Below are positions 16,337 to 48,114 of a DNA stretch of 64,000 nt, in pieces. This DNA is from Methylobacterium radiodurans (lineage in GTDB: Bacteria; Pseudomonadota; Alphaproteobacteria; Rhizobiales; Beijerinckiaceae). Numbering within the stretch: position 1 is the stretch's first letter; the number at the start of each line of letters is the position of its first letter. Both the position numbers and the translations under genes were made by a program. Location: NCBI RefSeq assembly GCF_003173735.1, contig NZ_CP029551.1, forward strand, positions 5,099,001 to 5,163,000. The letters are read 5' to 3'. The notes under the pieces are model-generated. The model saw only the letters and a list, made by a program, of their open reading frames with translations. It ran no database searches and was not told where the DNA came from.

Positions 16337-17656
16337 ATGCGTATCGCGATGATCGGTTCCGGCTATGTGGGCCTCGTCTCGGGCACCTGCTTTGCGGATT
16401 TCGGCCACGAGGTGGTCTGCGTCGACAAGGACCCGGCCAAGATCGAGGCCCTCAACGCCGGCCGCATGCCGATCTACGAGCCGGGCCTCGACGCGCTGGT
16501 GGCCGAGAACGTCCAGCAGGGCCGCCTCAGCTTCACCACGGACCTCAAGCCCGCGGTCGCGCAGGCCGACGCGGTGTTCATCGCGGTCGGCACGCCGTCG
16601 CGGCGCGGCGACGGCTTCGCGGATCTCTCCTTCGTGTTCGCGGCCGCCCGCGAGATCGCCGAGGCGGTGGACGGGTTCACGGTCGTCGTCACCAAATCGA
16701 CCGTGCCCGTCGGCACCGGCGACGAGGTCGAGCGCATCATCCGCGAGATCCGGCCGGACGCCGAGATCTCGGTCGCCTCCAATCCCGAGTTCCTGCGCGA
16801 GGGCGCGGCGATCGGTGACTTCAAGCGCCCCGACCGCATCGTCGTCGGGGCCGAGGACCCGCGCGCCGAGGAGAGCTTGCGCGAGATCTACCGCCCGCTC
16901 TTCCTCAACCAGGCGCCGATTCTTGTCACCGGCCGGCGAACGGCGGAGCTGACCAAGTACGCTGCCAACGCCTTTCTGGCGACGAAGATCACCTTCATCA
17001 ACGAGATCGCCGATCTCTGCGAGCAGGTCGGCGCCGACGTGCAGCAGGTCGCCCGCGGCATCGGGCTCGACAACCGCATCGGCGCGAAGTTCCTGCACGC
17101 GGGGCCCGGCTACGGCGGCTCCTGCTTTCCGAAGGACACGCTGGCGCTGGTCAAGACCGCCCAGGACGCCGGCACGCCGGTGCGGCTCGTCGAGACGGTG
17201 GTGGCGGTCAACGACAGCCGCAAGCGCGCCATGGCCCGCAAGGTGGTGCAGGCCTGCGGCGGCTCGGTCCGCGGCAAGACGGTGGCGGTGCTCGGCCTGA
17301 CCTTCAAGCCAAACACCGACGACATGCGCGACGCGCCCGCCCTCTCGATCATCACCGGCCTGCAGGATGCGGGCGCGCGGGTGCGCGCCTACGATCCGGA
17401 GGGCATGGAGGCCGCCAAGCCCCTGCTCGGCGAGGTCGCCTACGCGCGCGACGCCTACGACTGCGCCGAGGGCGCCGACGCCCTGGTGATCGTGACCGAG
17501 TGGAACGCCTTCCGGGCCCTCGACCTCGCCCGTCTCGGACAGATCATGGCGGACCGTGTTCTGGTCGATCTGCGCAACGTCTACGATCGGGCCAGCGTGC
17601 AGCGGCACGGTTTTCGCTACGTGAGCGTCGGTCGTCCCGACGGCGAGGCCGCCTGA
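16337..17656 (+). CDS. ugd: UDP-glucose 6-dehydrogenase
   Basis: This 439-residue enzyme oxidises UDP-glucose to UDP-glucuronate with two NAD+, supplying sugar nucleotides for surface polysaccharides. The N-terminal Rossmann domain begins MRIAMIGSGYVGLVSG. The catalytic Cys is C263 in GPGYGGSCFPKDTLAL, and NPEFLREGAA and GLTFKPNTDDMRDAP are also present. The ATG at 16337 is directly before the Rossmann motif; upstream in-frame codons are rejected. It precedes the polyketide synthase by about 450 bases on the same strand, but a functional link is not evident. It could serve the capsule-type genes at 41.7-49.5 kb. Confidence 0.96.
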   Translation: MRIAMIGSGYVGLVSGTCFADFGHEVVCVDKDPAKIEALNAGRMPIYEPGLDALVAENVQQGRLSFTTDLKPAVAQADAVFIAVGTPSRRGDGFADLSFVFAAAREIAEAVDGFTVVVTKSTVPVGTGDEVERIIREIRPDAEISVASNPEFLREGAAIGDFKRPDRIVVGAEDPRAEESLREIYRPLFLNQAPILVTGRRTAELTKYAANAFLATKITFINEIADLCEQVGADVQQVARGIGLDNRIGAKFLHAGPGYGGSCFPKDTLALVKTAQDAGTPVRLVETVVAVNDSRKRAMARKVVQACGGSVRGKTVAVLGLTFKPNTDDMRDAPALSIITGLQDAGARVRAYDPEGMEAAKPLLGEVAYARDAYDCAEGADALVIVTEWNAFRALDLARLGQIMADRVLVDLRNVYDRASVQRHGFRYVSVGRPDGEAA

Positions 17657-18109: not shown

Positions 18110-21100
18110 GTGACTCAACGTACAGATATCGCCATCGTCGGTCGCGCCTGCCGCCTTCCCGGCGCCCCCAGCGTGGATGGCCTCTGGCAGCTTCTGACCG
18201 AGCCGCGCTGCGCGGTGAGCCGCGTGCCCGACGACCGCTGGTCGCTCGACCGCTTCGGCCACCCGCGCGCGCAGGAGCGCGGCAAGAGCTACACCTGGGC
18301 GGCGGGCGTGCTCGACGACGTCTGGTCGTTCGACCCGGCCGTGTTCGGCATCTCGCCACGCGAGGCCGAGCAGATGGACCCGCAGCAGCGCCTGCTGCTC
18401 GAACTGACCTGGGAAGCGCTGGAGGATGCGGGGCTTCGTCCCTCCGCGGTCGCCGGCTCGCAGATCGGCGTCTTCGTGGGCGCCTCCTCGCTCGATTACG
18501 GGAACCTGCGCATCCTCGACGCCTCGTCGGGCGACGCCTACGCGGCCACCGGCAACACGCTCTCGATCCTCTCCAACCGCATCTCCTACATCTTCGACCT
18601 GAAGGGCCCGAGCTTCACGGTCGACACCGCCTGCTCGTCCTCGCTGGTCGCGCTCGACAACGCCGTGCAGGCGATCCAGTCCGGCCGCATCGACACGGCG
18701 GTGGTCGCGGGCGTGAACGTGCTGGCGAGCCCGTTCAACTTCATCTGCTTCTCGAACGCGCAGATGCTCTCGCGCACCGGCCTGTGCCAGGCCTTCTCGG
18801 CCAACGCCGACGGCTACGTGCGCTCGGAGGGCGGCGTCGTCCTCGTGTTGCAATCGGCCGAGGCCGCCATGCGCGACGAGGCGACCGTGCGCGGCCGCAT
18901 CGTCGCCTCCGGCGTCAACTCGGACGGGCGCACCACCGGCATCTCGCTGCCCTCCGGCTACGCCCAGGGCGCGCTGCTGGAGAAGGTCTACCGCGAGGCC
19001 GAGATCGACCTCGACCGGATCGCCTTCGTGGAGGCGCACGGCACCGGCACACCGGTCGGCGACCCGATCGAGGCCTCGGCCATCGGCGGCAAGCTCGGCC
19101 GGCTGCGCAAGGCGCCGCTGCCGATCGGCTCGATCAAGACCAATATCGGCCATACCGAGCCGACGTCGGGCCTCGCCGGCCTGCTCAAGGCCAGCCTCGC
19201 GCTGGAGCACGACCTCGTCCCGGCCTCGCTCCACTCCGCCGAGCTCAACCCCGACATCCCGTTCGGCGAGCTGAACCTCGACGTGGTGCGGAAAGCCCGC
19301 CCGATCGCGCGCGGCGCGGCCGAGCGCTTCGCGGGCGTCAACTCCTTCGGCTTCGGCGGCACCAACGCCCACGTCGTGCTGAGCGACGCGGAGCCGACCG
19401 CCCGCGTCGCGATGGCGGGTCCAACGGACCACGGCCCCGAAGTGCTGCTTCTCTCGGCCCAGAGCCGCGCGGCGCTCAACGACCTCGCGCTCGATTACGC
19501 CGAGCGCTTCGAGCGAGCCGACGCCAAGGAAGCCACCCGGATCGCGGCCGGCGCCGCCCACCGCCGCGAGCGCCTGAACGCGCGGCTCGCGATCCCGCTG
19601 GACGGCAAGACCGACATCGCCGCGACCTTGCGCGCCGTCGGCGAGGGCGAGGACACGGCGGACGCCGTGACCGGCACGGCGATCGACCGCGCCGCTGAGG
19701 TCGCCTTCATCTACTCCGGCAACGGCAGCCAGTGGGCCGGCATGGGCCGGGAGGCCTACGCCGAGAACGCCACGTTCCGGGCCGCCTTCGACCGCATCGA
19801 CGCACTGTTCCAGCCCTACGCCAAATGGTCGCTGAAGGAGGCGCTGGAGGTCGAGGATCTCGACCAGCGCCTCGCGCTCACCAGCGTCTCGCAGCCGCTG
19901 ATCTTCGCGATCCAGAGCGCCTCGACCACGGCGCTGCGCGCCCGCGGCCTGAACCCGGCCTACGTGCTCGGCCACAGCGTCGGCGAGATCGCAGCCGCCG
20001 AGGCCGCCGGCATCCTCAGCCTCGAGCAGGCCGTGCGGGTCATCTTCTACCGCAGCCACCACCAGGAGACGACGCGCGGCCAAGGCACCATGGCGGTGCT
20101 GCTCATGCCCGTCGAGGAGGTGCCGGGCGCGTTGAAGGAGTTCCCCGCCCTCGACATCGCCGCCTACAACAGCCCGAAGGCCGTGACCGTCGCGGGGCCG
20201 GTGGCCGACATCGACGCGGCGCTGAAGGCGCTCTCGCGCAAGCGCCGCCGCGGGCGCAAGCTCGACCTCGACTACCCCTTCCACGGCCGGATCATGGATC
20301 CGACCGAGAAGCCGCTGCTGCGCGACCTCGCGGGGTTGAAGCCGTCGTCCGGCACCACCCGCATGGTCTCGACCGTTACCGGCAAGGTTCTGGCGGGCGA
20401 GGAATTCGGCGCGACCTACTGGTGGCGCAACATCCGCGAGCCGGTCCGCTTCTGCGACGCGGTGCAGGAGGCGACCCGCCAGGGCGCCCGCATCTTCGTC
20501 GAGGTCGGACCCCGCGCGACCCTGATGTCCCATGTGGGCGACGCGATCGAGCCGCTCGGCATCGACAACGCCGTGGTCGGCGTGATGCACCGCAAGGATG
20601 CCGGCGGCGACCCGATCGCCAAGGCGGTCAGCGCCGCCCTGGTCCAGGGCGCGGCCGTGGACGAGGCCCTGCTGTTCGGCGCGGCGCCGAAGGGCGCGAT
20701 CAGCCTGCCGACCTATCCCTGGCAGCGCCGCTCCTTCCGGCTGGCCGAGACCACCGAAAGCGTCGGCGCGACCTCGGCGCGGCACTACCACCCGCTGATC
20801 GGCTCGCGCACCACGCCCGACGGGCTTGAGTGGAACGGCTTCGTGGACACCGTGACGGTGCCCGAGCTCGACGACCACCGCATCGAGGGCCAGGCGATCA
20901 TGCCCGGCGCCGGCTTCGTCGAGATGGCACTGGCCTGCGCCCGCGAGGCCCTGCGCAGCGACGAGATCGTGCTCGCCGACTTCGAGATCCACGCGCCGAT
21001 GGTGTTCAACGAGGAGGCGCTGCGCGAGGTCGCGGTGCGTCTCTCAGGGTCGGGCAACGGCATCCAGGTGCTGAGCCGCCCGCGCCTCGCGCAGACGCCC

Positions 21101-24100
21101 TGGCAGCTCCACGCCTCCGCCAAGGTGGTCGAGGGCCATTTCTCCCCGGCCGTCGCACCCGACGTCGAGATGCCCGAGGACCGCGCGGTCACGGGCGAGG
21201 CGCTCTACGCCCAGGCGCTCGCCGCCGGGCTCGGCTTCGGCCCGAGCTTCCGGCAGGTCGCGCTCTCGGCCCGCCTCGACGATCAGACCATCGTCTCCGA
21301 CCTCGTGCCGGCGGAGGCTGACGCCCGCTACGGCCTCGTGCCGGCGCGGCTCGACGCCTGCTTCCACGGCCTGATCCTGCTCTTCGCGGATCTCCTCGGC
21401 GAGAATGCCGGCAAGGCCTACATCCCGGTCCGCTTCGGCGAGATCCGCCTCGTGAAGCCCGGCGTGTCGATCGCCCGCGCGGTGATCCGCACCCGCCGCT
21501 GCAACGAGCGCAGCATCCTGGCTGACTTCACAGTTCTGGATGCCGACGGTGAGGTCGTCGCCACGATCCGCGAGGGCCGGTTCCAGGCACTGCGCGCCAA
21601 GGGCGGCGACGATCTCGCAGCCTACGCGATCACCCAGACCACGGAACTCGCCACCGAGCCGACCGCCGTGCCGATGGAAAGGCGCCCGACCATCGCGGCG
21701 CGCCTGAAGCCGGCCGTTGATGCGGCGAGTGCCGAAGCCGATGCCGCCCTCTCGCCGGGCCACCTCCTGCTGGAAGGTTGGGCTACCTCGCTGGCCTACC
21801 GGCTGGCCTCCGGCCTCGCCCAGGCTGGTAAGGTCGCGGCCGACACCCGCGTACCGGACGAGCTGCGCCCGTGGCTCGTCAACGCGCTGCTGGCGCTGGA
21901 GAGCAGCGGTCTCGCCGAGCAGGCGGGCTCCGCCTGGACGCTCAACGACGGCTCGGCGCTCCCCGCGCCGGACGAGATCGTGCGCTGGATCGCGGCCGAC
22001 CATCCGGAACTCTCGGCCGAGCTGGTGCTCGTCGCCGACGTCGGCGCCCTGGTCGAGCGCCTGCTCGCAGGCCAGCTCACCGAGGCCCCGGCCCTGCCGC
22101 AGAACGCGCTCGACGCCTTCACGCTGCGCAGCGCCACCGCCCGCCACGCCGCGGACGTGGTCGCCCGCATCACCGAGGCGGCGCGCGAGCGCCTGCCGAA
22201 GGACCGGGCGCTGCGCATCCTCCAGGTGGGCTTCGGTCCGCTCTCTGCCCAGGTCGCGACCTTCGCGGACGAGGTCGAGGCGCGGCTCACCGTGTTCGAC
22301 ACCGACCGGCGTCTAGCCGAGCGCGCCCGCCTCGCCCTGCCGCGCGGCGTCACCGTGGCGGAGACCGCCGAGGAACTGCCGGCGGCGGGCTTCGACCTCG
22401 TGCTGACGAGCGGCGCCCTGCACCGCGGCGCTCGCGAGCTGCCCCGCCAGCTCGCCGACGCGCTCGCCACCGGCGGCCTCTTGGTTGCGGTCGAGCCCGG
22501 CGCCTCGCTGTTCCGCGATCTCGTCTTCGGCCTCACCCCCGGCTGGTTCGAGGCGGGCGTCGGCGACCTCCCCGTGGGCCGGCTCGACGACATCGCGGGC
22601 TGGCAGCGCACCCTCAGCGCCACCGGCCTCGTCAGCGTCTCGGCGGAGCGCGCGGCCTCGGCCAACGGCGACGACCTACTCCTCGTCGCCGAGGCGCCGG
22701 CCCGCCCGGCCCCGGCGCCGGCCCAGACCTTCGCCTTCGTCATCGGCTCGGACGACGAGTTCGCGGCCGAGACCGCCTCCTCGCTCGCCACCCTGCTGGT
22801 GGCGAGCGGCGTCCACGTCTCGATCATCCTCGATTCCGACGCCTCCCTGATGGAGCTGGAGCGGGAGACCCCCGACACGGTGGTGTTCCTGGCCGGCGCC
22901 TTCACACGTGGCGGCGAGGCGGCCGAGCGCCTGCGCGACCGCTGCCTCAGCCTGAAGCGCTGCATCGAACATCTGGGCGCGCGCCAGACCCGGCTCTGGG
23001 TCGTGGCCCCGGGTGCCACGCGCGAGCGCGGCGGACAGGCCACCAACGTCGAGGCCGGCGTCTGGGCCTTCTCGCGCACCCTCGCCAACGAGGTGCAGAA
23101 CCTCGACGTGCGCCGCATCGATCTCGCGCCCGAGATGTCCTCCAAGCGCGCCTCCGAGCGCCTGCGCGACCTCATCCTCTCGGGGACCCCCGAGACCGAG
23201 ATCGTGCTGGACGAGGACCGCACGCAGGTGGTCCGCTTCCACCCGGGCGCCGCGCGCCGCCGCGCCGCGGACACCGTGCCGGCGGAGGCCGCGCGTCTGG
23301 AGCGCAGCAACACCGGCGGCCTCAACGAGATGGTCTGGGGCCCGGCCGAGCGCCGCAAGCCCGGGCCCGGCGAGGTCGAGATCGCCGTCGAGGCGACCGG
23401 CCTCAACTTCCGCGACGTACTCTGGGCGCTCTCGATGCTCCCGGAGGAGATCCTGGAGGACGGCTTCGCCGGTCCCCGCCTGGGCCTTGAATGCGCCGGC
23501 CGCGTCGCGGCGGTGGGCCCGGGCGTCGCGACCTTCAAGGTCGGCGATCCGGTCGTGGCCTTCGCCCAGTCGGGCTTCGCCACCCACATCGTCGTGCCGG
23601 ACCTCGTGGTGGCACCTGCTCCCGATGGGCTCGACCCGATGGCGGCGGCGACCGTGCCGGTGGCCTTCCTCACCGCCTATTACGGGCTCGTCTCGCTGGC
23701 CCGCCTGCGGCGCGGCGAGTGGGTGCTGGTCCATGGCGGCGCGGGCGGCGTCGGCCTCGCCGCGCTCCAGATCGCCAAGCTGAAGGGCGCGCGCGTCATC
23801 GCGACGGCCGGCTCGCGCGAGAAGCGGGCGCTGGTGAAGGCGCTCGGCGCCGAGCACGTGCTGGATTCGCGCTCGCTCGCCTTCGTGGACGAGATCCGGG
23901 CGATCACGGGTTCCGGCGTCGACGTGGTGCTCAACAGCCTGTTCGGCGAGGCGATGGAGCGCTCGCTCAACGCGCTCAAGCCCTTCGGCCGCTTCGTGGA
24001 GCTGGGCAAGCGCGACTACGTCGCCAACACCCATATCGGCCTGCGCCCGTTCCGCCGGAATCTCTCCTACTTCGGCGTCGATCTCGATCAGGTGCTCCAG

Positions 24101-25537
24101 CATCAGGGCGAGGACGGGGCGCGGCTGTTCCGCGAGGTCATGGCGCTGTTCGGCGAGGGTGGGCTGAAGCCCCTGCCCTTCCAGCCCTTCACGGCGGAGG
24201 AGACCTCCGACGCCTTCCGGCTGATGCAGCAATCCGGCCATATCGGGAAGATCGTCATCAGCCCGCCAAAGGCCGGCCGCGTGCCGGCCGCGCAGCGCTC
24301 CAGCTTCGCGATCTCGGACCGGGGTGCGCACCTCGTCACCGGCGGCCTCGGCGGCTTCGGCCTAGAGGCGGCGCGCTGGCTCGCGGATCGCGGCGCTCGG
24401 CACATCGTGCTCTGCGGCCGCAAGGGCGCGGCGAGCGAGGAGGCGAAGGCGGCGGTGGCCGAACTCGCGGCCCGCGGCGTCACCGTCGAGGCGCCGGCGG
24501 TGGACATAACCAGCCGCGCCGCGGTCGACCGGCTGATCGCGGGCATCGAGGCCAGGGGCGGCCGGCTCGCGGGCGTGATCCACGCGGCGGCCGTGCTGCA
24601 GGACGGCCTGATCGCCAACATCGATGCGGCCAATCTCGACGCGGTGATCGGCCCGAAGGTGATCGGCGCCCAGCACCTCGACGCGGCGACCCGCGACCGT
24701 CAGCTCGACTACTTCGTGGTGTTCTCCTCGGCCACCACCTTCATCGGCAACCCGGGCCAGGGTGCGTACGTCGCCGCCAACGGTTTCATGGAGGGACTGG
24801 CCCGTCAGCGCCGCCGCCGGGGGCTGCCGGCGCTCGCGGTCGCCTGGGGCGCTATCGGCGATGTCGGCATGCTCGCCCGGAACAAGGCGGTCATGGAGAC
24901 CCTCGCTTCCCGCGTCGGCGTCACGCCGATGGAGGCGCGCCGCTGCCTCGACCTGATGGAAGAGGCGCTGCAGGCCCAGGGCGAGAGCCCGGACGAGGCG
25001 GTGGTCGCCATCGCGGCGATGCATTGGGGCAAGGCGCGCGAGCGCCTCGCCACGCTGAAGTCGCCGAGCTACAGCGACCTCGGCTCCGATCAGCAGGCGG
25101 AGGCCGGCACCGTCGCGACGATCAACATCGCCGCGCTGCTCAAGGGCGGCGATCTCGACACGGTTCGCAAGACCGTGGCCGACGCGATCGTCGAGGATAT
25201 CGCCCGCATCCTGCGCCTGCCGAAGGACGATATCAGCCGCGTGCGCCAGCTCTCGGAGATCGGCCTCGACTCGCTGATGGGCGTGGAACTCGGCGCCAGC
25301 CTGCAGGAGCGCTTCGGTCTCGACTCGCCCCCGGCCGGCCTGTCCTCGGGTCTCACGGTGAACGAGCTGTCCGAGACCTTAATTCAGGCGGTTTCGGCGC
25401 CCATGGACGAGGCCGCCGGCGTCGCGCTCAGCCTCGCCTCGAAGCATGTCGGCAGCGAGGTCGACGCGGCCGCGATCGCGCCGTTCCAGGACCTCGTCGA
25501 GCAGAACAGTCGCGAGATCAAAGAGATCCTTCCATGA
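18110..25537 (+). CDS. Highly reducing type I polyketide synthase, single module
   Basis: A 2475-residue iterative-type synthase. Domains in order, with residues seen: ketosynthase (1-430; C175 in DTACSSS, H310 in VEAHGTGT, H348 in NIGH); acyltransferase (about 530-860; S623 in GHSVGE, with YPFH suggesting malonyl-CoA); dehydratase (about 890-1170; H923 in HRIEGQAIMP). Next come a methyltransferase-like region (about 1365-1530) with a degraded SAM motif (QVGFGPLS), a structural pseudo-ketoreductase (about 1540-1720), enoylreductase (about 1735-2050; HGGAGGVGLAA), ketoreductase (about 2070-2250; TGGLGGFG, Y2220) and acyl carrier protein (S2388 in GLDSLMGVEL). No thioesterase, reductase or condensation domain follows, only a ~60-residue tail. 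The GTG at 18110 precedes TQRTDIAIVG; starts at GTG 18095 or ATG 17918 are possible. The stop overlaps the alpha-oxoamine synthase start (ATGA). Product unknown. Confidence 0.93.
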   Translation: MTQRTDIAIVGRACRLPGAPSVDGLWQLLTEPRCAVSRVPDDRWSLDRFGHPRAQERGKSYTWAAGVLDDVWSFDPAVFGISPREAEQMDPQQRLLLELTWEALEDAGLRPSAVAGSQIGVFVGASSLDYGNLRILDASSGDAYAATGNTLSILSNRISYIFDLKGPSFTVDTACSSSLVALDNAVQAIQSGRIDTAVVAGVNVLASPFNFICFSNAQMLSRTGLCQAFSANADGYVRSEGGVVLVLQSAEAAMRDEATVRGRIVASGVNSDGRTTGISLPSGYAQGALLEKVYREAEIDLDRIAFVEAHGTGTPVGDPIEASAIGGKLGRLRKAPLPIGSIKTNIGHTEPTSGLAGLLKASLALEHDLVPASLHSAELNPDIPFGELNLDVVRKARPIARGAAERFAGVNSFGFGGTNAHVVLSDAEPTARVAMAGPTDHGPEVLLLSAQSRAALNDLALDYAERFERADAKEATRIAAGAAHRRERLNARLAIPLDGKTDIAATLRAVGEGEDTADAVTGTAIDRAAEVAFIYSGNGSQWAGMGREAYAENATFRAAFDRIDALFQPYAKWSLKEALEVEDLDQRLALTSVSQPLIFAIQSASTTALRARGLNPAYVLGHSVGEIAAAEAAGILSLEQAVRVIFYRSHHQETTRGQGTMAVLLMPVEEVPGALKEFPALDIAAYNSPKAVTVAGPVADIDAALKALSRKRRRGRKLDLDYPFHGRIMDPTEKPLLRDLAGLKPSSGTTRMVSTVTGKVLAGEEFGATYWWRNIREPVRFCDAVQEATRQGARIFVEVGPRATLMSHVGDAIEPLGIDNAVVGVMHRKDAGGDPIAKAVSAALVQGAAVDEALLFGAAPKGAISLPTYPWQRRSFRLAETTESVGATSARHYHPLIGSRTTPDGLEWNGFVDTVTVPELDDHRIEGQAIMPGAGFVEMALACAREALRSDEIVLADFEIHAPMVFNEEALREVAVRLSGSGNGIQVLSRPRLAQTPWQLHASAKVVEGHFSPAVAPDVEMPEDRAVTGEALYAQALAAGLGFGPSFRQVALSARLDDQTIVSDLVPAEADARYGLVPARLDACFHGLILLFADLLGENAGKAYIPVRFGEIRLVKPGVSIARAVIRTRRCNERSILADFTVLDADGEVVATIREGRFQALRAKGGDDLAAYAITQTTELATEPTAVPMERRPTIAARLKPAVDAASAEADAALSPGHLLLEGWATSLAYRLASGLAQAGKVAADTRVPDELRPWLVNALLALESSGLAEQAGSAWTLNDGSALPAPDEIVRWIAADHPELSAELVLVADVGALVERLLAGQLTEAPALPQNALDAFTLRSATARHAADVVARITEAARERLPKDRALRILQVGFGPLSAQVATFADEVEARLTVFDTDRRLAERARLALPRGVTVAETAEELPAAGFDLVLTSGALHRGARELPRQLADALATGGLLVAVEPGASLFRDLVFGLTPGWFEAGVGDLPVGRLDDIAGWQRTLSATGLVSVSAERAASANGDDLLLVAEAPARPAPAPAQTFAFVIGSDDEFAAETASSLATLLVASGVHVSIILDSDASLMELERETPDTVVFLAGAFTRGGEAAERLRDRCLSLKRCIEHLGARQTRLWVVAPGATRERGGQATNVEAGVWAFSRTLANEVQNLDVRRIDLAPEMSSKRASERLRDLILSGTPETEIVLDEDRTQVVRFHPGAARRRAADTVPAEAARLERSNTGGLNEMVWGPAERRKPGPGEVEIAVEATGLNFRDVLWALSMLPEEILEDGFAGPRLGLECAGRVAAVGPGVATFKVGDPVVAFAQSGFATHIVVPDLVVAPAPDGLDPMAAATVPVAFLTAYYGLVSLARLRRGEWVLVHGGAGGVGLAALQIAKLKGARVIATAGSREKRALVKALGAEHVLDSRSLAFVDEIRAITGSGVDVVLNSLFGEAMERSLNALKPFGRFVELGKRDYVANTHIGLRPFRRNLSYFGVDLDQVLQHQGEDGARLFREVMALFGEGGLKPLPFQPFTAEETSDAFRLMQQSGHIGKIVISPPKAGRVPAAQRSSFAISDRGAHLVTGGLGGFGLEAARWLADRGARHIVLCGRKGAASEEAKAAVAELAARGVTVEAPAVDITSRAAVDRLIAGIEARGGRLAGVIHAAAVLQDGLIANIDAANLDAVIGPKVIGAQHLDAATRDRQLDYFVVFSSATTFIGNPGQGAYVAANGFMEGLARQRRRRGLPALAVAWGAIGDVGMLARNKAVMETLASRVGVTPMEARRCLDLMEEALQAQGESPDEAVVAIAAMHWGKARERLATLKSPSYSDLGSDQQAEAGTVATINIAALLKGGDLDTVRKTVADAIVEDIARILRLPKDDISRVRQLSEIGLDSLMGVELGASLQERFGLDSPPAGLSSGLTVNELSETLIQAVSAPMDEAAGVALSLASKHVGSEVDAAAIAPFQDLVEQNSREIKEILP

Positions 25538-26898
25538 GCAATCCGAAGCCGGACGGGGGGCGCGCCGCTCTGGCAGGTTTTGTGACGAACCGGCTGGGTC
25601 GCGCGCCGACCCGGCCGCAGCCGGTCCGGGCCCCGGAGCCCGCGCAGGATCCCGCGATCCTCAGCTTCGAGTCGCTGCCGGGCTACCGCGAGTTGAAACT
25701 GCAGCGCTCGGCCGCCGACCTGATCGGGCTCGGCAACCCGTTCTTCCACGTCCACGAGACGAAGGCCGGCGCGACGACCCGCATCGAGGGCCGTCCCTTC
25801 GTCAACTTCTCGTCCTATGACTATCTTGGGCTCAACGGGCACCCGAAGGTGAGCGCGGCGGCCAAAGCGGCCATCGACGCCTTCGGCACCTCGTCCTCTG
25901 CGAGCCGCGTGGTGGCGGGCGAGCGCCCGGGCCATATCAGTCTGGAGAAGGCGCTGGCCGCTCATTACCGCGTCGATGCCTGCGTGGTGATGGTGAGCGG
26001 GCACGCCACCAACGTGACCACGATCGGCGCGTTGCTCGAGGCGGGCGACGTGATCTACCACGACGCGCTCAGCCACAACTCGATCGTCACCGGCGCCCAG
26101 CTCTCGGGCGCGCAGCGGCGCTCCTTCGCCCACAACGATCTCGACGCGCTGGAAACCCTGCTCCAGGCGACCCGCCACGAGCACCGCCGGGCGCTGATCG
26201 TGGTCGAGGGCCTCTACAGCATGGACGGCGACGCGCCGGACCTCGCCGGCCTCGTCGCGCTGAAAGAGCGCTACAACGCGTGGCTGATGGTGGACGACGC
26301 CCACGGGCTCGGCGTTCTCGGCCGGACCGGCGCGGGCCTGTTCGAGCATGCCGGGATCGACCCGAAGGCGGTCGATATCTGGATGGGCACCTTCTCGAAG
26401 ACGCTCTCCGGCTGCGGCGGCTACATCTGCGGTCCGGCGGCGCTCGTCGAGTACCTGAAGTGCACGGCCGGCGGCTTCGTCTACAGCGTCGGCATGTCGC
26501 CGCCGCTCGCCGCCGCGGCGGAGGCGTCGCTTGCCGTGATGCAGGCCGAGCCTGAGCGGGTCGAGCGCCTGCGCCAGAACGGCCGCCTCTTCCTCGACTG
26601 CGCCAGGAAGCACGGGCTCGACACCGGCTTCAGCTTGGGGCTCGCGGTGATCCCGGTGATCGTGGGCGACTCTCTGAAGTCGGTGACGCTCTCCCACCGC
26701 CTGTACAAGCGCGGCATCAACGTGCAGCCGATCATCCACCCGGCCGTGCCGGAGCGGGCCTCGCGGCTGCGCTTCTTCATGACCTCAGAGCACGAAGCCG
26801 ACCAGATCCGCGACACCGTCGCGGCGGTGGCGGAGGAGCTCGCGGCGATCGAGCAGGGCGGCTCGCTGATCGAGCAGTTGCTGGCGAAGCGCGCCTGA
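25534..26898 (+). CDS. Alpha-oxoamine synthase (PLP-dependent acyltransferase)
   Basis: This 454-residue protein belongs to the family of 8-amino-7-oxononanoate synthase, 5-aminolevulinate synthase and serine palmitoyltransferase. These enzymes condense an amino acid with an acyl thioester with loss of CO2. The PLP Schiff-base lysine is K289 in GTFSKTLSG; the cofactor-contacting Asp is D254 in VDDAHGLG, and GTSSSASRVVAG and SHNS are further family motifs. An N-terminal extension of ~80 residues before FVNFSSYDYLGL is longer than in BioF and may contact the carrier protein. The ATGA overlap with the polyketide synthase implies it uses the synthase-bound chain, like Fum1/Fum8 in fumonisin synthesis. 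The amino-acid substrate (Ala, Ser or Gly) cannot be read. Confidence 0.9.
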   Translation: MSNPKPDGGRAALAGFVTNRLGRAPTRPQPVRAPEPAQDPAILSFESLPGYRELKLQRSAADLIGLGNPFFHVHETKAGATTRIEGRPFVNFSSYDYLGLNGHPKVSAAAKAAIDAFGTSSSASRVVAGERPGHISLEKALAAHYRVDACVVMVSGHATNVTTIGALLEAGDVIYHDALSHNSIVTGAQLSGAQRRSFAHNDLDALETLLQATRHEHRRALIVVEGLYSMDGDAPDLAGLVALKERYNAWLMVDDAHGLGVLGRTGAGLFEHAGIDPKAVDIWMGTFSKTLSGCGGYICGPAALVEYLKCTAGGFVYSVGMSPPLAAAAEASLAVMQAEPERVERLRQNGRLFLDCARKHGLDTGFSLGLAVIPVIVGDSLKSVTLSHRLYKRGINVQPIIHPAVPERASRLRFFMTSEHEADQIRDTVAAVAEELAAIEQGGSLIEQLLAKRA

Positions 26899-41657: not shown

Positions 41658-42515
41658 CTATCCCCGCGCGTTCAGCGCCAGCGCCTCCGCCAAATCCCGC
41701 GCATCCGTCAGCTTCTGCCCGCGGGTGCGCATCGCCCGCAGCATCGCCCGATCGGGGAACGGGCAGTAGGGCAGCACCGGCACGCGCTCGCCCTCCGGGA
41801 CCGCGCCCTCGCGCGCGATCCGGTCGAGCAGGGCCTGCAGCATCAGCAGACCGTGCTGGTGCAGCTGAACCGAGGCCCGCGTCGCGGTCACGCTCGGCGA
41901 GAGGCGGAAGCGCTCCTGCGCCAGGATCGCGCCCGCATCGATCTGCGGGGCGAGCCGGTGCAGGGTCATGCCGAAGGCGTCCGGGCCTTCCGCAAGCGCG
42001 TGGATCGTCGGCACCGGGCCGCGGTGGCGCGGCAGCAGCCCCGGATGGGCGTTGATCCCGCCGAGCCGAGCCGCCGCGATGGTCTCCGGCGTCAGGATCT
42101 GGTCGAAATGGTAGGTGAGGATCAGGTCCGGCGCGTATTCCTGCAGGGCATGGGCGACCTCCGGGCCGTTCACGTCGTCGACCGTCAGCGTCGGGACGCC
42201 GTGCCGGGCACAGAGTTCGGCCAGCGGCGTCGTCTCGCTTAGGTCGCGGCTGCGCCCGAGCGCTTGCGTCAGGGGCGCCAGCGGGCGCAGCAGGTCCGGC
42301 AGGCCGAAATTGATGCCGAGATAGGGCAGGATGGCGGGGCCGGAGCGGGCGAGATGCCGCCGTACCTGGCCCACCAGCCCGCCGGCCGCCGGCCGCTCGG
42401 CGTTCGAGAGCCCGACGAAGGCGATCTCCAGCGCGTGGTCGGCCACGAACCGGCGCACCGCGCGCGCGTTCGGGAGCGCCTCCAGAACGAAGAGCGCGAT
42501 GCGGGCGCGCGCCAT
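41658..42515 (-). CDS. Formyltransferase-family protein
   Basis: The 285-residue protein contains the formyltransferase fold found in Fmt, PurN and sugar N-formyltransferases. The key motif is INAHPGLLPRHRGPVPTIHAL (His of HPGLLP), preceded by DLILTYHFDQIL and followed by GMTLHRLAPQIDAGAILAQ with the catalytic Asp. It lacks the Fmt C-terminal domain, so it is probably not Met-tRNA formyltransferase. A sugar N-formyltransferase or related role in polysaccharide modification is inferred from the capsule-type neighbours. Its start overlaps the SDR stop by one base. Confidence 0.8.
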   Translation of the reverse strand: MARARIALFVLEALPNARAVRRFVADHALEIAFVGLSNAERPAAGGLVGQVRRHLARSGPAILPYLGINFGLPDLLRPLAPLTQALGRSRDLSETTPLAELCARHGVPTLTVDDVNGPEVAHALQEYAPDLILTYHFDQILTPETIAAARLGGINAHPGLLPRHRGPVPTIHALAEGPDAFGMTLHRLAPQIDAGAILAQERFRLSPSVTATRASVQLHQHGLLMLQALLDRIAREGAVPEGERVPVLPYCPFPDRAMLRAMRTRGQKLTDARDLAEALALNARG

Positions 42516-43282
42516 CAGCGCCGCTTCCGGATCTGGAAGCGGAAGCCGTGCATGCCGAGGCGCCGCAAGGATTCGGGCAGAAGCCCGGCCCCGCGGGCGA
42601 GCACCGCGAGCAGCGTCGGGAAGGCCACGATGTCCCTGTCCCGCTCCAGCCCCCGGGCGATCCGCCGGGCGGCCTCCTCGGCGCTCATCTCCAGCGGACG
42701 CCAGCCCTTGTAGTCGCCGCCCATCGGGGTCTTCACGTAGCCCGGCGTCACCACGTTGATCTTCACGCCGCGGGCCCGGACCTTCTCGCGCAGCGCCAAG
42801 CCGTGGGCGAGGAGCGCCGCCTTGGCGCCGCTATAGGCGGGCGCGTCGGGCAGGGGCGCGAAGGCCGCGAGCGAGGACATCAGGGCGATCTGGCCCTGTC
42901 CGCGGGCGAGCATCAGGCCGACGCAGGGCAGCATCACGTTGAGGGCGCCGCCGAGGTTGATGTCCGCGGTCTCGAAGGCTACCGCTTCGGTCTCGACGTC
43001 CCCGGTCGGGTGGCCGCCGTTGATCGCCGCGTTGACGATTACGAGGTCGAGCGGCTGCCGCGCGTGCACGGTTTCCAAGAAGGCGCGCACGGCTGCGCGG
43101 TCGCGCACGTCGAGGCGCTCCGTCTCGACCGCGGCGCCCTGCCCCCGGCACGCTTCCGCGACAGCCTCCAGCCGGGCAGGGTCGCGGGCGACGAGGACGA
43201 GGGTGGTGCCGGGGCCGGCATAGTGGCGGGCGAGCGCCGCGCCGATGCCGCTCGACGCGCCGGTGATCAGGATGCAGGGCAT
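42515..43282 (-). CDS. Short-chain dehydrogenase/reductase
   Basis: This 255-residue SDR has the NAD(P)-binding motif ITGASSGIGAAL, NAAINGG, the catalytic Ser in MSSLAAF and the YxxxK motif in PAYSGAKAALL. The C-terminal region (RIARGLERDRDIVAFPTLLAVLARG) is like that of SDRs found in polysaccharide clusters. The substrate is unknown. It overlaps the formyltransferase gene and probably acts with it. Confidence 0.9.
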   Translation of the reverse strand: MPCILITGASSGIGAALARHYAGPGTTLVLVARDPARLEAVAEACRGQGAAVETERLDVRDRAAVRAFLETVHARQPLDLVIVNAAINGGHPTGDVETEAVAFETADINLGGALNVMLPCVGLMLARGQGQIALMSSLAAFAPLPDAPAYSGAKAALLAHGLALREKVRARGVKINVVTPGYVKTPMGGDYKGWRPLEMSAEEAARRIARGLERDRDIVAFPTLLAVLARGAGLLPESLRRLGMHGFRFQIRKRR

Positions 43283-43402: not shown

Positions 43403-44794
43403 TCAGTAGACCGGTGCGAGCCGGCCGTCCTCCTCCGCGCGCTCGCGGATGGCGCGGGCGGCGGCAAGCGTGGCGTCCGGCAGGGCCGATTCCATCCGCG
43501 GCACCGAGCCCGCGACCGCACGGGCTATCGCCTCCTGCGAGAAGAAGCCGCCGTTCACCTGGGTCCGGTTGAGGACGACGCGGCGAAAATCGGCGACCAG
43601 ATCCATGTCGGGCGCGATCGGGTCGGTCCAGAAGCTGTCGAGGTCGCCCTGATGGGTCAGGCCGGCCATGTTGTAGATCGCGGTGCCGACCGCGTGGGTC
43701 GGGCGGCCCATCTCCAGCGACAGCATGCCGACGGTGGAGTTCACGATCACCACCCCGCGCGCGCCCGCGATCAGGGCCGGCAGGTCGCCGCCGTCGATGA
43801 AGTCGAGCCGGTCGCTCACCCCGTGGCGCCGGGCCGACGCGCGGGCGAAGCGGCGCCAGTTCATCAGGCCGCTGTCGAGCGGATGCAGCTTTACCAGGAG
43901 GCGCGTCGGCGCCTTCGAGGTCTCGGCGAAGGACTTGATCACCCGGTCCATGAAGCCCTCGACCCCGAGGAAGGGGGAGTGCACGCGGATCTGGTAGTCG
44001 CTGTCGAGTTGGAGCGGCAGCAGGAAGTAGTCGCAGCCGACCGCGCGGTAGATCTCGTCGCAACGCGCTGCCTCGCGCCGAGTCCGGCCGCGGCGGGCGA
44101 ACTTCTTGATCCAGCCCGCATACTCCATCGCGATGTGCGTCGGCCGGTGGCTGCGGAAGCGCGGGTAGAGGTAGGGGAACAGGACGTTGGCGAGGTTGTA
44201 GCTCACGTCCCAGAGGCTGCGGCGCGCCATGTCGCCGGTCGACGGCATGGCCCGGGCCGGCTGCGGCAGGCGGCGGGCGAGAGCGCGCACCGCCTCGGCG
44301 GTTCGCGGCAGTGACGAGTAGCCGTTCACGCCGCCGAGCTCGCAGGTGATCCAGTTCGGCCGGATATAGCCTTCCTCGAAGACGTGGACGCGCAAGCCCT
44401 CTCGCGCTGCCAACTCGCGGGCGACCACGTGGAAGGGACGGCAATCGCCGAACAGCACGATGTCGGTCACGCCGTGCTCGGCCACGTAGGCGTCGAGGAA
44501 CGCCTCCCAACCGGTGCGGGGGCCGCGGTAATGGTCGGACTCGCCGCCCCAGAACAGCCAATCGCCCGAGCAGAAGTTGATGCGCCGCACGTTGTGGCCG
44601 CGCGCGCGCAGGGCCTGGCCGAGGTCGGAGAAGAAGGGGGAGGCGATGCCCTGCAAGAACAGGAAGGTTGCGGGACGGTCGCGGCCGGCGCTCTCGCGGG
44701 TCAGCATGTCGAGAGAGGCTGCTCGAACCTCTGGCCGCGGCGGAAGCCTGGCGGCGGTCTCGGTGGTCGCGGTATCTGGGCGAGACTGCAGCAT
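43403..44794 (-). CDS. Capsule polysaccharide export protein, KpsS-like
   Basis: The ~463-residue protein matches KpsS-type capsule proteins. KpsS adds the first Kdo of the poly-Kdo linker to lysophosphatidylglycerol in ABC-transporter capsule systems. Family segments include FLFLQGIASPFFSDLGQAL, INFCSGDWLFW, LFGDCRPFHVVAR, VHVFEEGYIRPNWIT and, in the C-terminal half, LVKLHPLDSG and VVIVNSTVGMLSLEMG. ATG 44794 is chosen, with GGAAG nine bases upstream; the frame is open to a GTG at 44866. It is divergent from the KpsC-like gene. Confidence 0.88.
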   Translation of the reverse strand: MLQSRPDTATTETAARLPPRPEVRAASLDMLTRESAGRDRPATFLFLQGIASPFFSDLGQALRARGHNVRRINFCSGDWLFWGGESDHYRGPRTGWEAFLDAYVAEHGVTDIVLFGDCRPFHVVARELAAREGLRVHVFEEGYIRPNWITCELGGVNGYSSLPRTAEAVRALARRLPQPARAMPSTGDMARRSLWDVSYNLANVLFPYLYPRFRSHRPTHIAMEYAGWIKKFARRGRTRREAARCDEIYRAVGCDYFLLPLQLDSDYQIRVHSPFLGVEGFMDRVIKSFAETSKAPTRLLVKLHPLDSGLMNWRRFARASARRHGVSDRLDFIDGGDLPALIAGARGVVIVNSTVGMLSLEMGRPTHAVGTAIYNMAGLTHQGDLDSFWTDPIAPDMDLVADFRRVVLNRTQVNGGFFSQEAIARAVAGSVPRMESALPDATLAAARAIRERAEEDGRLAPVY

Positions 44795-45142
44795 TCTGAG
44801 GCGCTTCCGTCCTTCACCGCGCCGGAAACCGTGAGGAATTTCCGGCAGTCGACCATGGGGTTGCACGACGCCCGGTTCTCAGCAATCCGCTGCCGGGGGC
44901 GCTTCCTGTGAATCCTGTGGGCTGTGACCGCGCCGCAACGCGGGGTACTGCTCCGGTTCAGCGGGGTTAAGCAGCAATCACGGCGGCGGTATGTCCGCTC
45001 CCGCCGGGCCGGGGCTTGTCCCCGCTGCCCACGTTTCGCGTAGGATCAGCCCCGCGCGCTTGAAAATGCGCTACAGGCGGGCGAGCCCTCGAGCATTCGA
45101 CCTGGGCAGGACCGGATATGGAGCCCGAACAGGGCGGAGGAC
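44795..45142. other. 348-base divergent gap between the KpsS-like and KpsC-like genes
   Basis: No gene is supported here. It must contain promoters for both directions if these genes are expressed, but I see no clear consensus element. A purine-rich GGCGGAGGA immediately precedes the KpsC-like ATG and is its probable ribosome binding site. Confidence 0.5.
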
Positions 45143-46627
45143 ATGGCCGCCGCATCGACTGACTTCTTCGCCATCGGACCGACGATCCACCTCCTTCGCG
45201 CCGAGATCGAGGCGGCGACCGGCGGCACCTGCGTCCGGTTCGGGCGGCCCAGCGCGCTGGCCGCCGTGTGGGGTGGCGGCTCGCTGTCCGCCAGAATGGT
45301 CGGGAGATTCGGGCTGAACGTGCTCGTGGTCGGGCCCGGCCCGTTGCTGAGTCCCTACGACACCCCCGCGACCGGCCTCGCCTCGCTGCGCATCCGGCAT
45401 CCGGAGGGCGAGCGGGTGCACCATTTCGATCCCTGGACGCGGCGTCCGGTCTCGCCCGAGGACTGCGCCGAGAAGGTCGCGTGGCTGGCCGCCCGCTTCG
45501 CCGAGAACCACCGGCGCGTCGTCTATGTCGGCATCTCGAAGTGGAAGCGCCCGGCGCTCGACGTCTTCGCCGCCGGGCCCGCAGGGCCGCCGATCCACAC
45601 CATGAATGCGGCGGATGCGGTCGCGGCCGGACGGCGCCACGGTGGTCAGGTGCAGGCCTGGGCGACCCGGGCGCCGGAGGCTCTGGAAGCGGCCTGCGCC
45701 GAGGCCGGGCTGCCGCTCGCCCGGATCGAGGACGGCTTCCTGCGCTCGGTCGGGCTCGGCGCGAGCCTGCGGCCGGGCGCCTCGATCGTCGTGGACGATG
45801 CCGGCATCTACTACGATCCCCGCCGCGACAGCCGGCTCGCTTTGATCCTGAAGACGGCGGAGTTCCCCGCGCCGCTGGTCGCCCGGGCGCGGCGCCTGCG
45901 CGAAGAGGTCGTGGCGCGGCGCCTCAGCAAGTACAATGTCGGGCTCGATGCCGGCACGGCCGATTGGCCCAGCGATCGCCGTGTCGTGCTGGTGCCGGGG
46001 CAGGTCGAGGACGACGCCTCGGTGCAGTACGGCTCGCCGAATGTGCGCTCGAACCGGGCCCTGCTGGCGGCCGCGCGCGCGCGCAACCCCGACGCCTTCC
46101 TGCTCTACAAGCCTCATCCCGACGTCGAAGCCGGTTTCCGGCCCGGCGCGATCCCGGAGGCGGAGGCACTAGCGCTCGCCGACCGGGTCGTCTCCGGGAT
46201 CAGCATCGTGGACCTGCTCGACCGCGTGCAGCACGTCGAGACCATGACCTCGCTCGCCGGTTTCGAGGCGCTGATCCGCGGGCTCACCGTGGCGACGCAC
46301 GGACGCCCGTTCTACTCGGGCTGGGGCCTCAGCGAGGATCTCGCACCCGGGGCCGACAGGGGCCGGCGCCTCGCACTCGACGAGCTCGTCGCCGGGGCGC
46401 TCATCCTCTACCCGCGCTATCTCGACCCTGTGGCGATGAAGCCCTGCGAGCCGGAGCAGCTCCTCGACCGGCTCAGCGCCGCCCGCGAGACGGCGCCGCG
46501 CAGCGCGCTCGCCCTCTCCCGCCTCGCGCACCTGACCATGCGGGCGCGCTACGGGCTGCTCAACCCGATCGTCCGGCTCCTGCGCGCCCGCCGGGGCATC
46601 CGCCAGGGCCAGGGACCGGACGCATGA
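45143..46627 (+). CDS. Capsular polysaccharide protein, KpsC-like (one-unit)
   Basis: This 494-residue protein resembles KpsC, the retaining beta-Kdo transferase that builds the poly-Kdo linker of capsules. Motifs seen are RIEDGFLRSVGLGASL, VDDAGIYYDP, VPGQVEDDASV, LYKPHPDVE, HVETMTSLAGFEALI and GRPFYSGWGLSED. Full KpsC has two such glycosyltransferase units (about 670 residues); here there is one plus an N-terminal ~140-residue part. The activity may therefore be restricted to one linkage. The stop overlaps the next gene by ATGA. Confidence 0.88.
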   Translation: MAAASTDFFAIGPTIHLLRAEIEAATGGTCVRFGRPSALAAVWGGGSLSARMVGRFGLNVLVVGPGPLLSPYDTPATGLASLRIRHPEGERVHHFDPWTRRPVSPEDCAEKVAWLAARFAENHRRVVYVGISKWKRPALDVFAAGPAGPPIHTMNAADAVAAGRRHGGQVQAWATRAPEALEAACAEAGLPLARIEDGFLRSVGLGASLRPGASIVVDDAGIYYDPRRDSRLALILKTAEFPAPLVARARRLREEVVARRLSKYNVGLDAGTADWPSDRRVVLVPGQVEDDASVQYGSPNVRSNRALLAAARARNPDAFLLYKPHPDVEAGFRPGAIPEAEALALADRVVSGISIVDLLDRVQHVETMTSLAGFEALIRGLTVATHGRPFYSGWGLSEDLAPGADRGRRLALDELVAGALILYPRYLDPVAMKPCEPEQLLDRLSAARETAPRSALALSRLAHLTMRARYGLLNPIVRLLRARRGIRQGQGPDA

Positions 46628-48114
46628 GCTTGCTCACGGGCTTCCTCGCGCCCATGGCCTGCGCCCTCGCGCTCTCCTCCGCGATCGAGGCCTGGGGTGG
46701 CGCCGCGCGAGCGCCCTTCGGTCGGCGCCCGGGCGACATCGTCCTGCGGCTCGGCGCCTACGCGTTGCTCACCCTGTTCTGGTTCAGCTTCTCCTGGCGC
46801 CCCTGGCTGGCTGCCAGCAGCACCGTGACCACCGTCGCGGCGCTCGTGCTGATCAGCCGGGCCAAGCGGGCGGTGATCGGCGAGCCGCTGGTCTTCAGCG
46901 ATTTCGCCCTGCTGCCGCAGGTGCCGCGCCACCCCCAGCTCTACTACATCCCGCCTGTGACGAGCCCGCGCGTCGCCGGTCCGGCCCTCGTCGCCGTCGC
47001 GGGTGTCGGGCTCTGGTACTGGTTGGAGCCGAGCCTGCTGCCCGCCAGCCTGTGGCTGAGCCTCGCCGCGATCCTGGCGTTGCCGCTCGCCCTGCTGGCG
47101 CTCGCCGCCGCGGCGGCGCGGGGCCCCCTCGCCCGGGCTCTCGCCCAGCGCTTCCCGAGGCCGGACCTCGATTCGGACATCGCCCGCATCGGCCTGCCGG
47201 CGACGCTCATGGCCTACGCGCTGCGCCGCCGCGCCGAGCCCGCCCGCGCCGCGATGCCGGCCGGGGCGGCTGCGCCTGGTGATCCGGTAGTGATCGTCAT
47301 CCAACTCGAATCGTTCATCGATCCAGAGCGGCTGGGCGGCCCGCCGCTGCCCGCCCTGGAGCTGATCCGGTCCCGCGCGGCCGAGTACGGCCGCCTGCGC
47401 GTGCCGGCGCACGGCGCCTACACGATGCGCAGTGAGCACGCCGTCCTCACCGGCTCCGAACCGTCCGACCTCGGCTTCGGCGTCTACGACCCCTATCTCG
47501 CGAATGGCGGCGAAGAGCCGGAAAGCCTGCCCCGACGCGCCGCGGCGAACGGCTACGAGACGCTCTTCGTCCACCCCTTCCACCGCGACTTCTTCCAGCG
47601 CGCCCGGGTGATGCAGCGTTTCGGCTTCCGCCGCCTCGTGATGGGCGAGGACTTCGCCGACGCGCAGCGCGTCGGACCCTACGTAAGCGACGTGGCGCTC
47701 GGCCGGCGCATCCTCGCGGAGGTGCGGGCGCGGCGCGGGCCGCTCTTCCTGTTCAGCGTGACCATGGAGAATCACGGGCCCTGGAAACCCGGCCGGCTGC
47801 CGGGGGTGGACGACCCGCTGGCGCAGTACCTCCACCACGTCGCCAATACGGGCCGGATGGTCGAGGAACTCGTCGCAGGTCTCGCGGACGAGCGGGCGAC
47901 GCTCTGCGTGTTCGGGGATCACGCCCCTGCCCTGCCGACCTGCCGGCCCGGCTTCGGCGAGACGAGCACCGACTACGCCCTGTTCCGGTTCGGCGGCCCG
48001 GCCTCCGAGCCGAGGCGGATCGACCGCACGGCCGACGCCCTAGGCCGTCACCTGCGAGCCACGCTTCACACCGATCCGACGCCGCCCTCCGCGTCGAGCC
48101 CCGCTCAAGCGTGA
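46624..48114 (+). CDS. LTA-synthase-like (sulfatase-fold) membrane protein
   Basis: This 496-residue protein has about five N-terminal membrane segments (to about residue 160) and an alkaline-phosphatase-superfamily catalytic domain (about 220-470) on the periplasmic side. Active-site elements are intact: E229 in IQLESF, the nucleophile T267 in AYTMRSEH, TMENHGPW, and D432/H433 in VFGDHAP. This architecture is that of lipoteichoic acid synthases and of phosphoglycerol or phosphoethanolamine transferases. Likely role: adding a phosphoglycerol-type group to a surface glycan or lipid. It overlaps the KpsC-like gene by ATGA. Confidence 0.85.
   Translation: MSLLTGFLAPMACALALSSAIEAWGGAARAPFGRRPGDIVLRLGAYALLTLFWFSFSWRPWLAASSTVTTVAALVLISRAKRAVIGEPLVFSDFALLPQVPRHPQLYYIPPVTSPRVAGPALVAVAGVGLWYWLEPSLLPASLWLSLAAILALPLALLALAAAAARGPLARALAQRFPRPDLDSDIARIGLPATLMAYALRRRAEPARAAMPAGAAAPGDPVVIVIQLESFIDPERLGGPPLPALELIRSRAAEYGRLRVPAHGAYTMRSEHAVLTGSEPSDLGFGVYDPYLANGGEEPESLPRRAAANGYETLFVHPFHRDFFQRARVMQRFGFRRLVMGEDFADAQRVGPYVSDVALGRRILAEVRARRGPLFLFSVTMENHGPWKPGRLPGVDDPLAQYLHHVANTGRMVEELVAGLADERATLCVFGDHAPALPTCRPGFGETSTDYALFRFGGPASEPRRIDRTADALGRHLRATLHTDPTPPSASSPAQA

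Follow-up and report, generated by a model that had tools for sequence, protein, structure and literature searches.

This analysis concerns a 64,000-nucleotide stretch of the Methylobacterium radiodurans genome, called the window below (NCBI RefSeq assembly GCF_003173735.1, contig NZ_CP029551.1, forward-strand positions 5,099,001 to 5,163,000), and within it an adjoining pair of genes for a polyketide synthase (PKS) and an alpha-oxoamine synthase (AOS) dependent on pyridoxal 5'-phosphate (PLP). The PKS frame opens at an ATG at position 17918, and similarity to the PKS RkpA begins at a GTG at 18110, from which 2475 residues run to the stop codon. The two genes share the bases ATGA at 25534-25537, in which the ATG of the AOS starts at 25534 and the TGA of the PKS occupies 25535-25537, an overlap already described in an earlier note made from the sequence alone (the original prediction). 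The window PKS is 40% identical to Sinorhizobium meliloti RkpA (2547 aligned columns, BLASTP 1568 bits) and the AOS is 54% identical to S. meliloti RkpG. By its sequence the pair is read as the RkpA-RkpG of Methylobacterium, which would place the locus in an already known gene family. The pair probably makes a 3-ketosphinganine-type base that, once reduced, would serve a K-antigen-like capsule of the KpsS/KpsC kind as its lipid anchor or carrier.

Pfam matches in the PKS cover the ketosynthase (KS), acyltransferase (AT), dehydratase (DH), enoylreductase (ER) and ketoreductase (KR) domains and a phosphopantetheine site; the same scan returns no release domain in the PKS and no match over its methyltransferase (MT)-like stretch. 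In an alignment of six PKSs (the window PKS, S. meliloti RkpA, an SgaA-like PKS from Pseudomonas and three others), the catalytic motifs of the KS, AT, DH, ER, KR and acyl carrier protein (ACP) domains, by their usual reading, are intact in the window PKS. The S-adenosylmethionine (SAM) motif of the MT-like stretch is degenerate in all six, and an active C-methyltransferase was rejected for this reason. The length, the domain set and the missing release domain given by the original prediction all stand; the MT domain on its list is a degenerate stretch without a Pfam match. Judged by these motifs, the PKS has the domains to assemble an acyl chain held on its own carrier domain, and this chain is expected to be saturated and unbranched because the reductive motifs are present and the SAM motif of the MT-like stretch is degenerate.

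The 454-residue AOS is a complete protein of the Aminotran_1_2 family, and its PLP lysine and Asp and His residues, by their usual assignment in the family, fall in invariant columns of an eight-sequence alignment, so the intact PLP-dependent enzyme that had been predicted is indeed encoded. It reaches none of the curated NCBIfam cut-offs for BioF, Kbl, 5-aminolevulinate synthase (ALAS) or serine palmitoyltransferase (SPT); its best score, 359.7 bits, is with the bioF model, which has a cut-off of 426. In a tree of 71 chosen rows, 62 PKS-type AOS proteins, among them those of the window, RkpG and the SgaB-like proteins, are split by a 100/100 branch from nine BioF, Kbl, ALAS and SPT references, some of which sit on long branches and one of which, an SPT, scores under its model's cut-off. 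This phylogeny had been proposed as a check by the original prediction, and it sets the window AOS apart from all four reference types. The genome has five other superfamily members, a BioF-like protein whose partial sequence scores 412.2 bits (cut-off 426.45) and four ALAS proteins; this set thus contains no canonical SPT. The four ALAS genes (loci L003-L006 of the source genome) exceed the curated cut-off. A BioF-type enzyme was rejected on the score below the cut-off, the tree position and the presence of a separate BioF-like gene in the genome.

The coupling of the two genes was followed with the AOS as the query. Loci were fetched from 20 of 36 Methylobacterium congeners and from 20 of 66 other genomes of the order with a close AOS, some being skipped for contig ends, and a PKS lies directly upstream of the AOS in all 40, which argues that the pairing is not a matter of chance. 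In a distant set of 80 AOS loci from named genomes, the PKS is present in 67 of the 69 with at least 8 kb of upstream sequence, the two without it being L086 and L098. The co-occurrence that the original prediction had wished to see examined across the order is thus found when counted from the AOS side. An AOS domain is fused to the C-terminus of a PKS on a Planktothrix plasmid (L060:9581-17179) and on a Streptomyces plasmid (L061:12341-17164), and these fusions support a functional coupling of the two activities.

The nearest named relatives of the AOS are Methylobacterium proteins, the best at 91% identity. The enzyme is found in all 36 congeners searched at 76-94% identity, whereas in the order's other families 3 of the 24 genomes searched have it (53-56% identity), the remaining 21 having only more distant superfamily members; on these counts it looks like a core gene of Methylobacterium. 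A weaker AOS group of 40-52% identity is also present in the order (G271, G288, G062, G085, G115, G122, G167, G172, G192, G238, G327 and G329), and genomes such as G181 and G208 carry both the weaker and the close type.

Comparisons with the SgaAB sphinganine cluster of Pseudomonas fluorescens MYb115 were made against an SgaA-like Pseudomonas cluster, L065, as a stand-in for the MYb115 sequence. A published 22-base MYb115 sgaA primer matches the start of the L065 PKS at 22/22 positions. The second and third MYb115 primers align at the expected places with 4/23 and 6/21 mismatches, so L065 is a relative and not MYb115 itself. Table 1 lists the pair and the capsule-type genes of the window.

Table 1. 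Position, strand and supporting evidence of the PKS-AOS pair and of the capsule-type genes in the window
Feature	Position	Strand	Evidence
Single-module, probably iterative type I PKS, KS-AT-DH-(degenerate MT)-ER-KR-ACP; RkpA/SgaA homologue	18110..25537	+	Pfam; RkpA/SgaA-like identity
PLP-dependent AOS; RkpG/SgaB homologue	25534..26898	+	Pfam Aminotran_1_2; identity; tree
Short-chain dehydrogenase (SDR), SgaC/RkpH-like; candidate 3-ketosphinganine reductase	42515..43282	-	Pfam adh_short
KpsS-family protein, RkpJ homologue; candidate first transferase of 3-deoxy-D-manno-octulosonic acid (Kdo)	43403..44866	-	Capsule_synth 264 bits
KpsC-like protein; candidate for Kdo-linker extension	45143..46627	+	Capsule_synth 134.6 bits; 41% identity to L065 KpsC-like protein
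RkpI homologue, lipoteichoic acid (LTA)-synthase/sulfatase family; candidate phosphoglycerol transferase	46624..48114	+	32% identity to S. meliloti RkpI
RkpU homologue, polysaccharide export protein	48193..49485 (alignment from near 48295)	+	Pfam Poly_export, SLBB_2
UDP-glucose 6-dehydrogenase, RkpK-like; UDP-glucuronate for polysaccharides	16337..17656 (open reading frame opens at 16184)	+	Pfam UDPG_MGDP_dh; TIGR03026 over cut-off
Formyltransferase-like protein adjoining the SDR	41658..42515	-	Pfam PF00551

Homologues of rkpU, rkpA, rkpG, rkpH, rkpI and rkpJ all lie within the window. At E<=0.001, both Capsule_synth matches of the whole genome and its single Sulfatase-family match (PF00884) are those listed in Table 1. 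The SDR is 41% identical to the SgaC-like SDR of L065 and 30% identical to S. meliloti RkpH, and the KpsS/RkpJ-like protein is 41% identical to S. meliloti RkpJ and 45% identical to the L065 KpsS. The start of the RkpI-like gene overlaps the stop of the KpsC-like gene, and the RkpI-family profile is nearest to the structures of the GacH phosphoglycerol transferase and of LTA primase/synthase. The RkpU homologue has 33% identity to the product of the gene that lies upstream of rkpA in S. meliloti. At another place in the genome, a KpsT protein (65% identical to Shinella) has a KpsE-like neighbour that is 28-29% identical to Shinella capsule proteins, and a KpsM-like protein at yet another place is 42% identical to its Shinella counterpart and 24% to that of Paraburkholderia; the KpsM-like and KpsE-like proteins have no Pfam match. 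The original prediction had noted no transporter or tailoring gene next to the pair, which is accurate for the immediate neighbours and fails farther out, since the SDR, the two Capsule_synth proteins (KpsS-family and KpsC-like), the RkpI homologue and the RkpU homologue are all encoded 15-23 kb downstream.

Two further genes accompany these loci in Methylobacterium. The RkpK-like gene is found within the roughly 9 kb fetched upstream of the pair in 14/20 Methylobacterium loci and in 0/20 loci of other families. The formyltransferase-like gene accompanies the capsule block in 11 of the 20 Methylobacterium loci and was not found in the 20 other-family loci; its product might formylate an amino sugar.

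Association of the AOS with capsule genes was counted in 297 genomes of the order, the source genome included. An AOS match at E<=1e-80 is present in 84 genomes and a close AOS (E<=1e-130) in 72, and Capsule_synth is matched in 100, of which 19 with E above about 1e-40 were dropped, by a split made by eye, to define strong matches. Strong Capsule_synth matches occur in 62 of the 72 genomes with a close AOS and in 19 of the 225 others (Fisher p ~5e-36), and with the weak matches counted too the figures are 63/72 and 37/225. Counted by genus, a strong Capsule_synth match is found in 23 of 30 genera with a close AOS versus 11 of 92 (Fisher p ~6e-11). The 12 genomes that have only a weaker AOS display no link to Capsule_synth (3/12). 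RkpI orthologues, defined by E<1e-90 at a gap in the scores of the 43 genomes that match at 1e-15, are present in 19 genomes; every one of these has an AOS, a close one in 18 cases, and in the 24 genomes whose RkpI-family matches are all weaker no AOS reaches E<=1e-80.

Gene order supplies a second view of this association. In M. bullatum (L059) and 9/20 of the fetched congeners, the capsule block, with its RkpI-like gene, begins at a distance of 1.5-2.5 kb from the start of the AOS and has its far end no more than about 10 kb away; in two others a capsule block is present in which the RkpI-like gene was not detected, and within the 20 kb fetched the other nine have only the export gene (one locus) or nothing of the block. 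Because the block is close to the AOS in M. bullatum and these nine congeners, the gap of about 15 kb between pair and block in the window looks like the result of a rearrangement. Of the distant loci, 53 have 9 kb or more of sequence on each flank, and 39 of these carry a Capsule_synth (19) or an LTA-synthase-family (34) gene.

The SgaA-SgaB pair of MYb115 makes C24, C26 and C28 sphinganines, and SgaB, once purified, joins L-serine to acyl-CoA and makes very little use of alanine or glycine (PMC12134224). Since this homologous pair makes sphinganines, a long-chain sphingoid-like amino lipid, as proposed by the original prediction, is the likely product of the window pair, and serine is the likely amino acid. 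The same prediction favored a membrane lipid over an exported toxin; the product is probably neither and is more plausibly a capsule anchor or carrier, given the capsule genes in the same window and their co-occurrence with the AOS across the order.

In the proposed pathway, the PKS would run iteratively to give a long saturated acyl-ACP, and the AOS would release the chain through a decarboxylative condensation, in which L-serine is the most likely amino acid partner, to form a 3-ketosphinganine. The SDR would reduce this compound to sphinganine, to which the RkpI-like enzyme would add phosphoglycerol from phosphatidylglycerol, yielding a phosphoglycerol-sphinganine that resembles lyso-phosphatidylglycerol. 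The KpsS-like and KpsC-like proteins would then build a Kdo linker on this lipid, the capsular polysaccharide would be made on the linker, and KpsM-, KpsT-, KpsE- and RkpU-type proteins would export the lipid-linked polysaccharide. The phosphoglycerol and the Kdo linker could be added in either order. In some Escherichia coli and Neisseria, (lyso-)phosphatidylglycerol is the lipid on which KpsS begins the Kdo linker (PMC7694667).

Several observations weigh against this reading. The capsule block of the window is 15-23 kb from the pair, and in the order a Capsule_synth match is within 20 kb on the same contig for at least 34 of 72 close AOS genes. Genus-level counts lessen the effect of shared ancestry and do not remove it, and the Fisher tests ignore kinship beyond the genus. 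An RkpI orthologue is missing from 54 of the 72 genomes with a close AOS, so phosphoglycerol transfer by RkpI would not be universal, and 14 of the 53 distant two-flank loci have neither a Capsule_synth nor an LTA-synthase-family gene. At the level of single proteins, SDR families are large and the match of the window SDR to RkpH is weak, and the KpsS-family protein scores 253.6 bits with the KpsS model NF050054, under its cut-off of 600. Serine use, chain length and reduction are all read from homologues. LtaS/GacH-type enzymes act outside the cytoplasmic membrane, as RkpI-type enzymes probably do. As KpsS acts at the cytoplasmic face of that membrane (PMC7694667), the addition of phosphoglycerol before the Kdo linker would need a flip of the lipid. 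The poly-Kdo K-antigen of S. meliloti 1021 is reported to have a phospholipid anchor (Fraysse et al.), and this anchor could be an ordinary glycerophospholipid, which would contradict a sphingoid anchor.

The reported phospholipid anchor also favors an alternative in which the products of the pair are free sphinganines or phosphoglycerol sphingolipids that stay in the membrane or are secreted as secondary metabolites, and the nearby capsule genes use an ordinary lyso-phosphatidylglycerol anchor. MYb115 accumulates free sphinganines together with species 154 Da heavier that are most likely phosphoglycerol sphingolipids (PMC12134224), as this alternative would have it, and in the order neither gene requires the other: 10 of the 72 genomes with a close AOS have no strong Capsule_synth match (nine of them have none at all) and 19 genomes have a strong match without a close AOS. 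It is nevertheless rather unlikely in view of the strong co-occurrence and frequent linkage of the AOS with Capsule_synth, the reports that rkp-1 genes are involved in or required for the Sinorhizobium K-antigen (PMC7902896, PMC3557214, PMC8227245) and the presence of KpsS and KpsC genes in the MYb115-type cluster L065 itself.

A different lipid carrier for the capsule, such as a plain long-chain acyl lipid or a 1-deoxy amino lipid from alanine or glycine, is improbable; it would agree with the proposal of an rkp lipid carrier or anchor that names no sphingoid base (PMC3557214) and with the failure of the AOS to reach any curated SPT cut-off, and the serine preference of purified SgaB, noted above, concerns the same choice of amino acid. 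A role for the AOS in the biotin, haem or threonine pathway, with the PKS as a mere neighbor, is scarcely conceivable. The bioF model does give the AOS its best NCBIfam score, and several sources label its relatives 8-amino-7-oxononanoate synthase, but that score stays under the bioF cut-off, the genome has its own BioF-like gene and four ALAS genes, all nine references lie beyond the 100/100 branch, a PKS is upstream in 40/40 loci, and in Planktothrix and Streptomyces the two enzymes are fused.

The gene pair itself is already known (rkpA-rkpG, sgaA-sgaB); the idea that the locus supports is that a PKS-made sphingoid base anchors this type of capsule. Rhizobial rkp genetics and the 2025 work on PKS-made bacterial sphingolipids deal with homologous pairs, and in the texts covered neither names the other. 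The main text of PMC12134224 contains no match to rkp, capsul, polysaccharide, Kdo or lipoteichoic, and the link of a sphingoid base to a capsule anchor is absent from the passages covered of PMC12220298, PMC13410964, PMC9558356, PMC5748678, PMC7902896 and PMC8227245. The joining of a PKS-made sphingoid base to a capsule anchor was not found in the literature searched, coverage of which was partial, so its absence is not proven. Joining the two fields would give a definite, testable anchor structure for a capsule type that matters in symbiosis and might explain the presence of the pair in many bacteria from which sphingolipids are not known. The RkpI-like enzyme is a candidate for the source of the phosphoglycerol headgroup seen in Pseudomonas, and the capsule locus looks like a core trait of Methylobacterium. 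Put more broadly, and only tentatively, the lipid carrier of rkp/wcb-type capsules in Methylobacterium, rhizobia, Burkholderia-type bacteria and Pseudomonas alike might be a sphingoid base of PKS origin, converted to a mimic of lyso-phosphatidylglycerol where a phosphoglycerol-transferase homologue exists, with KpsS and KpsC adding the Kdo linker. If this were true, the sphingolipids of MYb115 would be capsule-anchor precursors and not free secondary metabolites.

The pair can be set beside several known systems. In fungal fumonisin and AAL-toxin synthesis, the PKS chain is released by a PLP-dependent oxoamine synthase; the likeness is one of description, and the window pair differs in lying among capsule genes. 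The canonical SPT of the Sphingomonas/Caulobacter type belongs to the same superfamily as the window AOS and probably catalyzes the same reaction. It differs in sequence, the window AOS being 31% and 39% identical, across the 100/100 branch, to two alphaproteobacterial SPT-like proteins, one of which scores over the SPT model cut-off and one under it. The KpsS and KpsC homologues of the window are shared with capsules of the ABC-transporter (group 2-like) kind.

The wcb cluster of Burkholderia (WcbR PKS) is treated as orthologous to rkp, both having a type I PKS and capsule genes (PMC3908369), and Paraburkholderia and Caballeronia relatives carry similar gene sets. Loci on plasmids of Paraburkholderia, Caballeronia, Pseudomonas and Shinella bring together the PKS, the AOS, an LTA-synthase/phosphatase-family gene, an SDR and capsule or polysaccharide-export genes, with no Capsule_synth-type match in the 33 kb of the Caballeronia locus. 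The Paraburkholderia and Caballeronia clusters differ from the window in that PKS and AOS are separated by an additional LpxC-like gene, annotated as UDP-3-O-acyl N-acetylglycosamine deacetylase (L055:14950-15864 in Paraburkholderia, L058:14898-15824 in Caballeronia).

The SgaAB-type cluster L065 shares 38% (PKS), 56% (AOS) and 41% (SDR) identity with the window. Its PKS and AOS are followed by PhyH, Capsule_synth frames, GNAT, LTA-synthase-family, SDR, KpsS and KpsC genes. Between the AOS and the SDR, the Pseudomonas clusters hold a PhyH-type dioxygenase and a GNAT acyltransferase (L065:12764-13807 and 15923-16501; L056:17240-18283 and 20399-21001), which could hydroxylate or N-acylate the sphingoid base. 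The MYb115 SgaB and SgaC locus tags are five steps apart, a numbering consistent with how the genes are arranged on the related plasmid L056. SgaC, an SDR, is the presumed reductase of MYb115, the reductases of the fungal systems are named as well, and 6,101 SgaAB homologous clusters are reported, mostly from Burkholderia (PMC12134224). SgaAB differs from the window pair in having been studied as a secondary-metabolite cluster (PMC12134224).

A close parallel is the rkp-1 region (rkpU, A, G, H, I, J) of S. meliloti and S. fredii, known for the K-antigen capsule. In an S. meliloti locus (L054, from a record labelled pSymB), the pair adjoins a divergent polysaccharide export gene, followed by an SDR, an unannotated LTA-synthase-family frame and a capsule protein; we take this locus to be the rkp-1 region, with gene names that follow the literature and are absent from the record. 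K-antigen clusters are described as holding a large fused rkpA together with rkpGHIJ, and S. meliloti 1021 is reported to have the fused rkpA (PMC7902896). The rkp-1 genes are reported to take part in K-antigen synthesis, their product being a possible lipid carrier or anchor (PMC7902896, PMC3557214), and an exoA rkpH double mutant reportedly makes neither exopolysaccharide nor K-antigen polysaccharide (PMC8227245). The original prediction knew of no described product for such a pair in this lineage; Sinorhizobium belongs to the same order, and the papers, as far as covered, tie its rkpA-rkpG to the capsule. An orphan PKS-AOS route without precedent was accordingly rejected, RkpA-RkpG and SgaA-SgaB being close precedents. 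The window differs from rkp-1 in the distance of about 15 kb between the A-G pair and the H/J/KpsC/I/U block and in the rearranged order of that block, which has a KpsC-like gene inside; it shares with rkp-1 the order of PKS and AOS, the same four-base overlap and, 15-23 kb downstream, homologues of U, H (a weak match), I and J.

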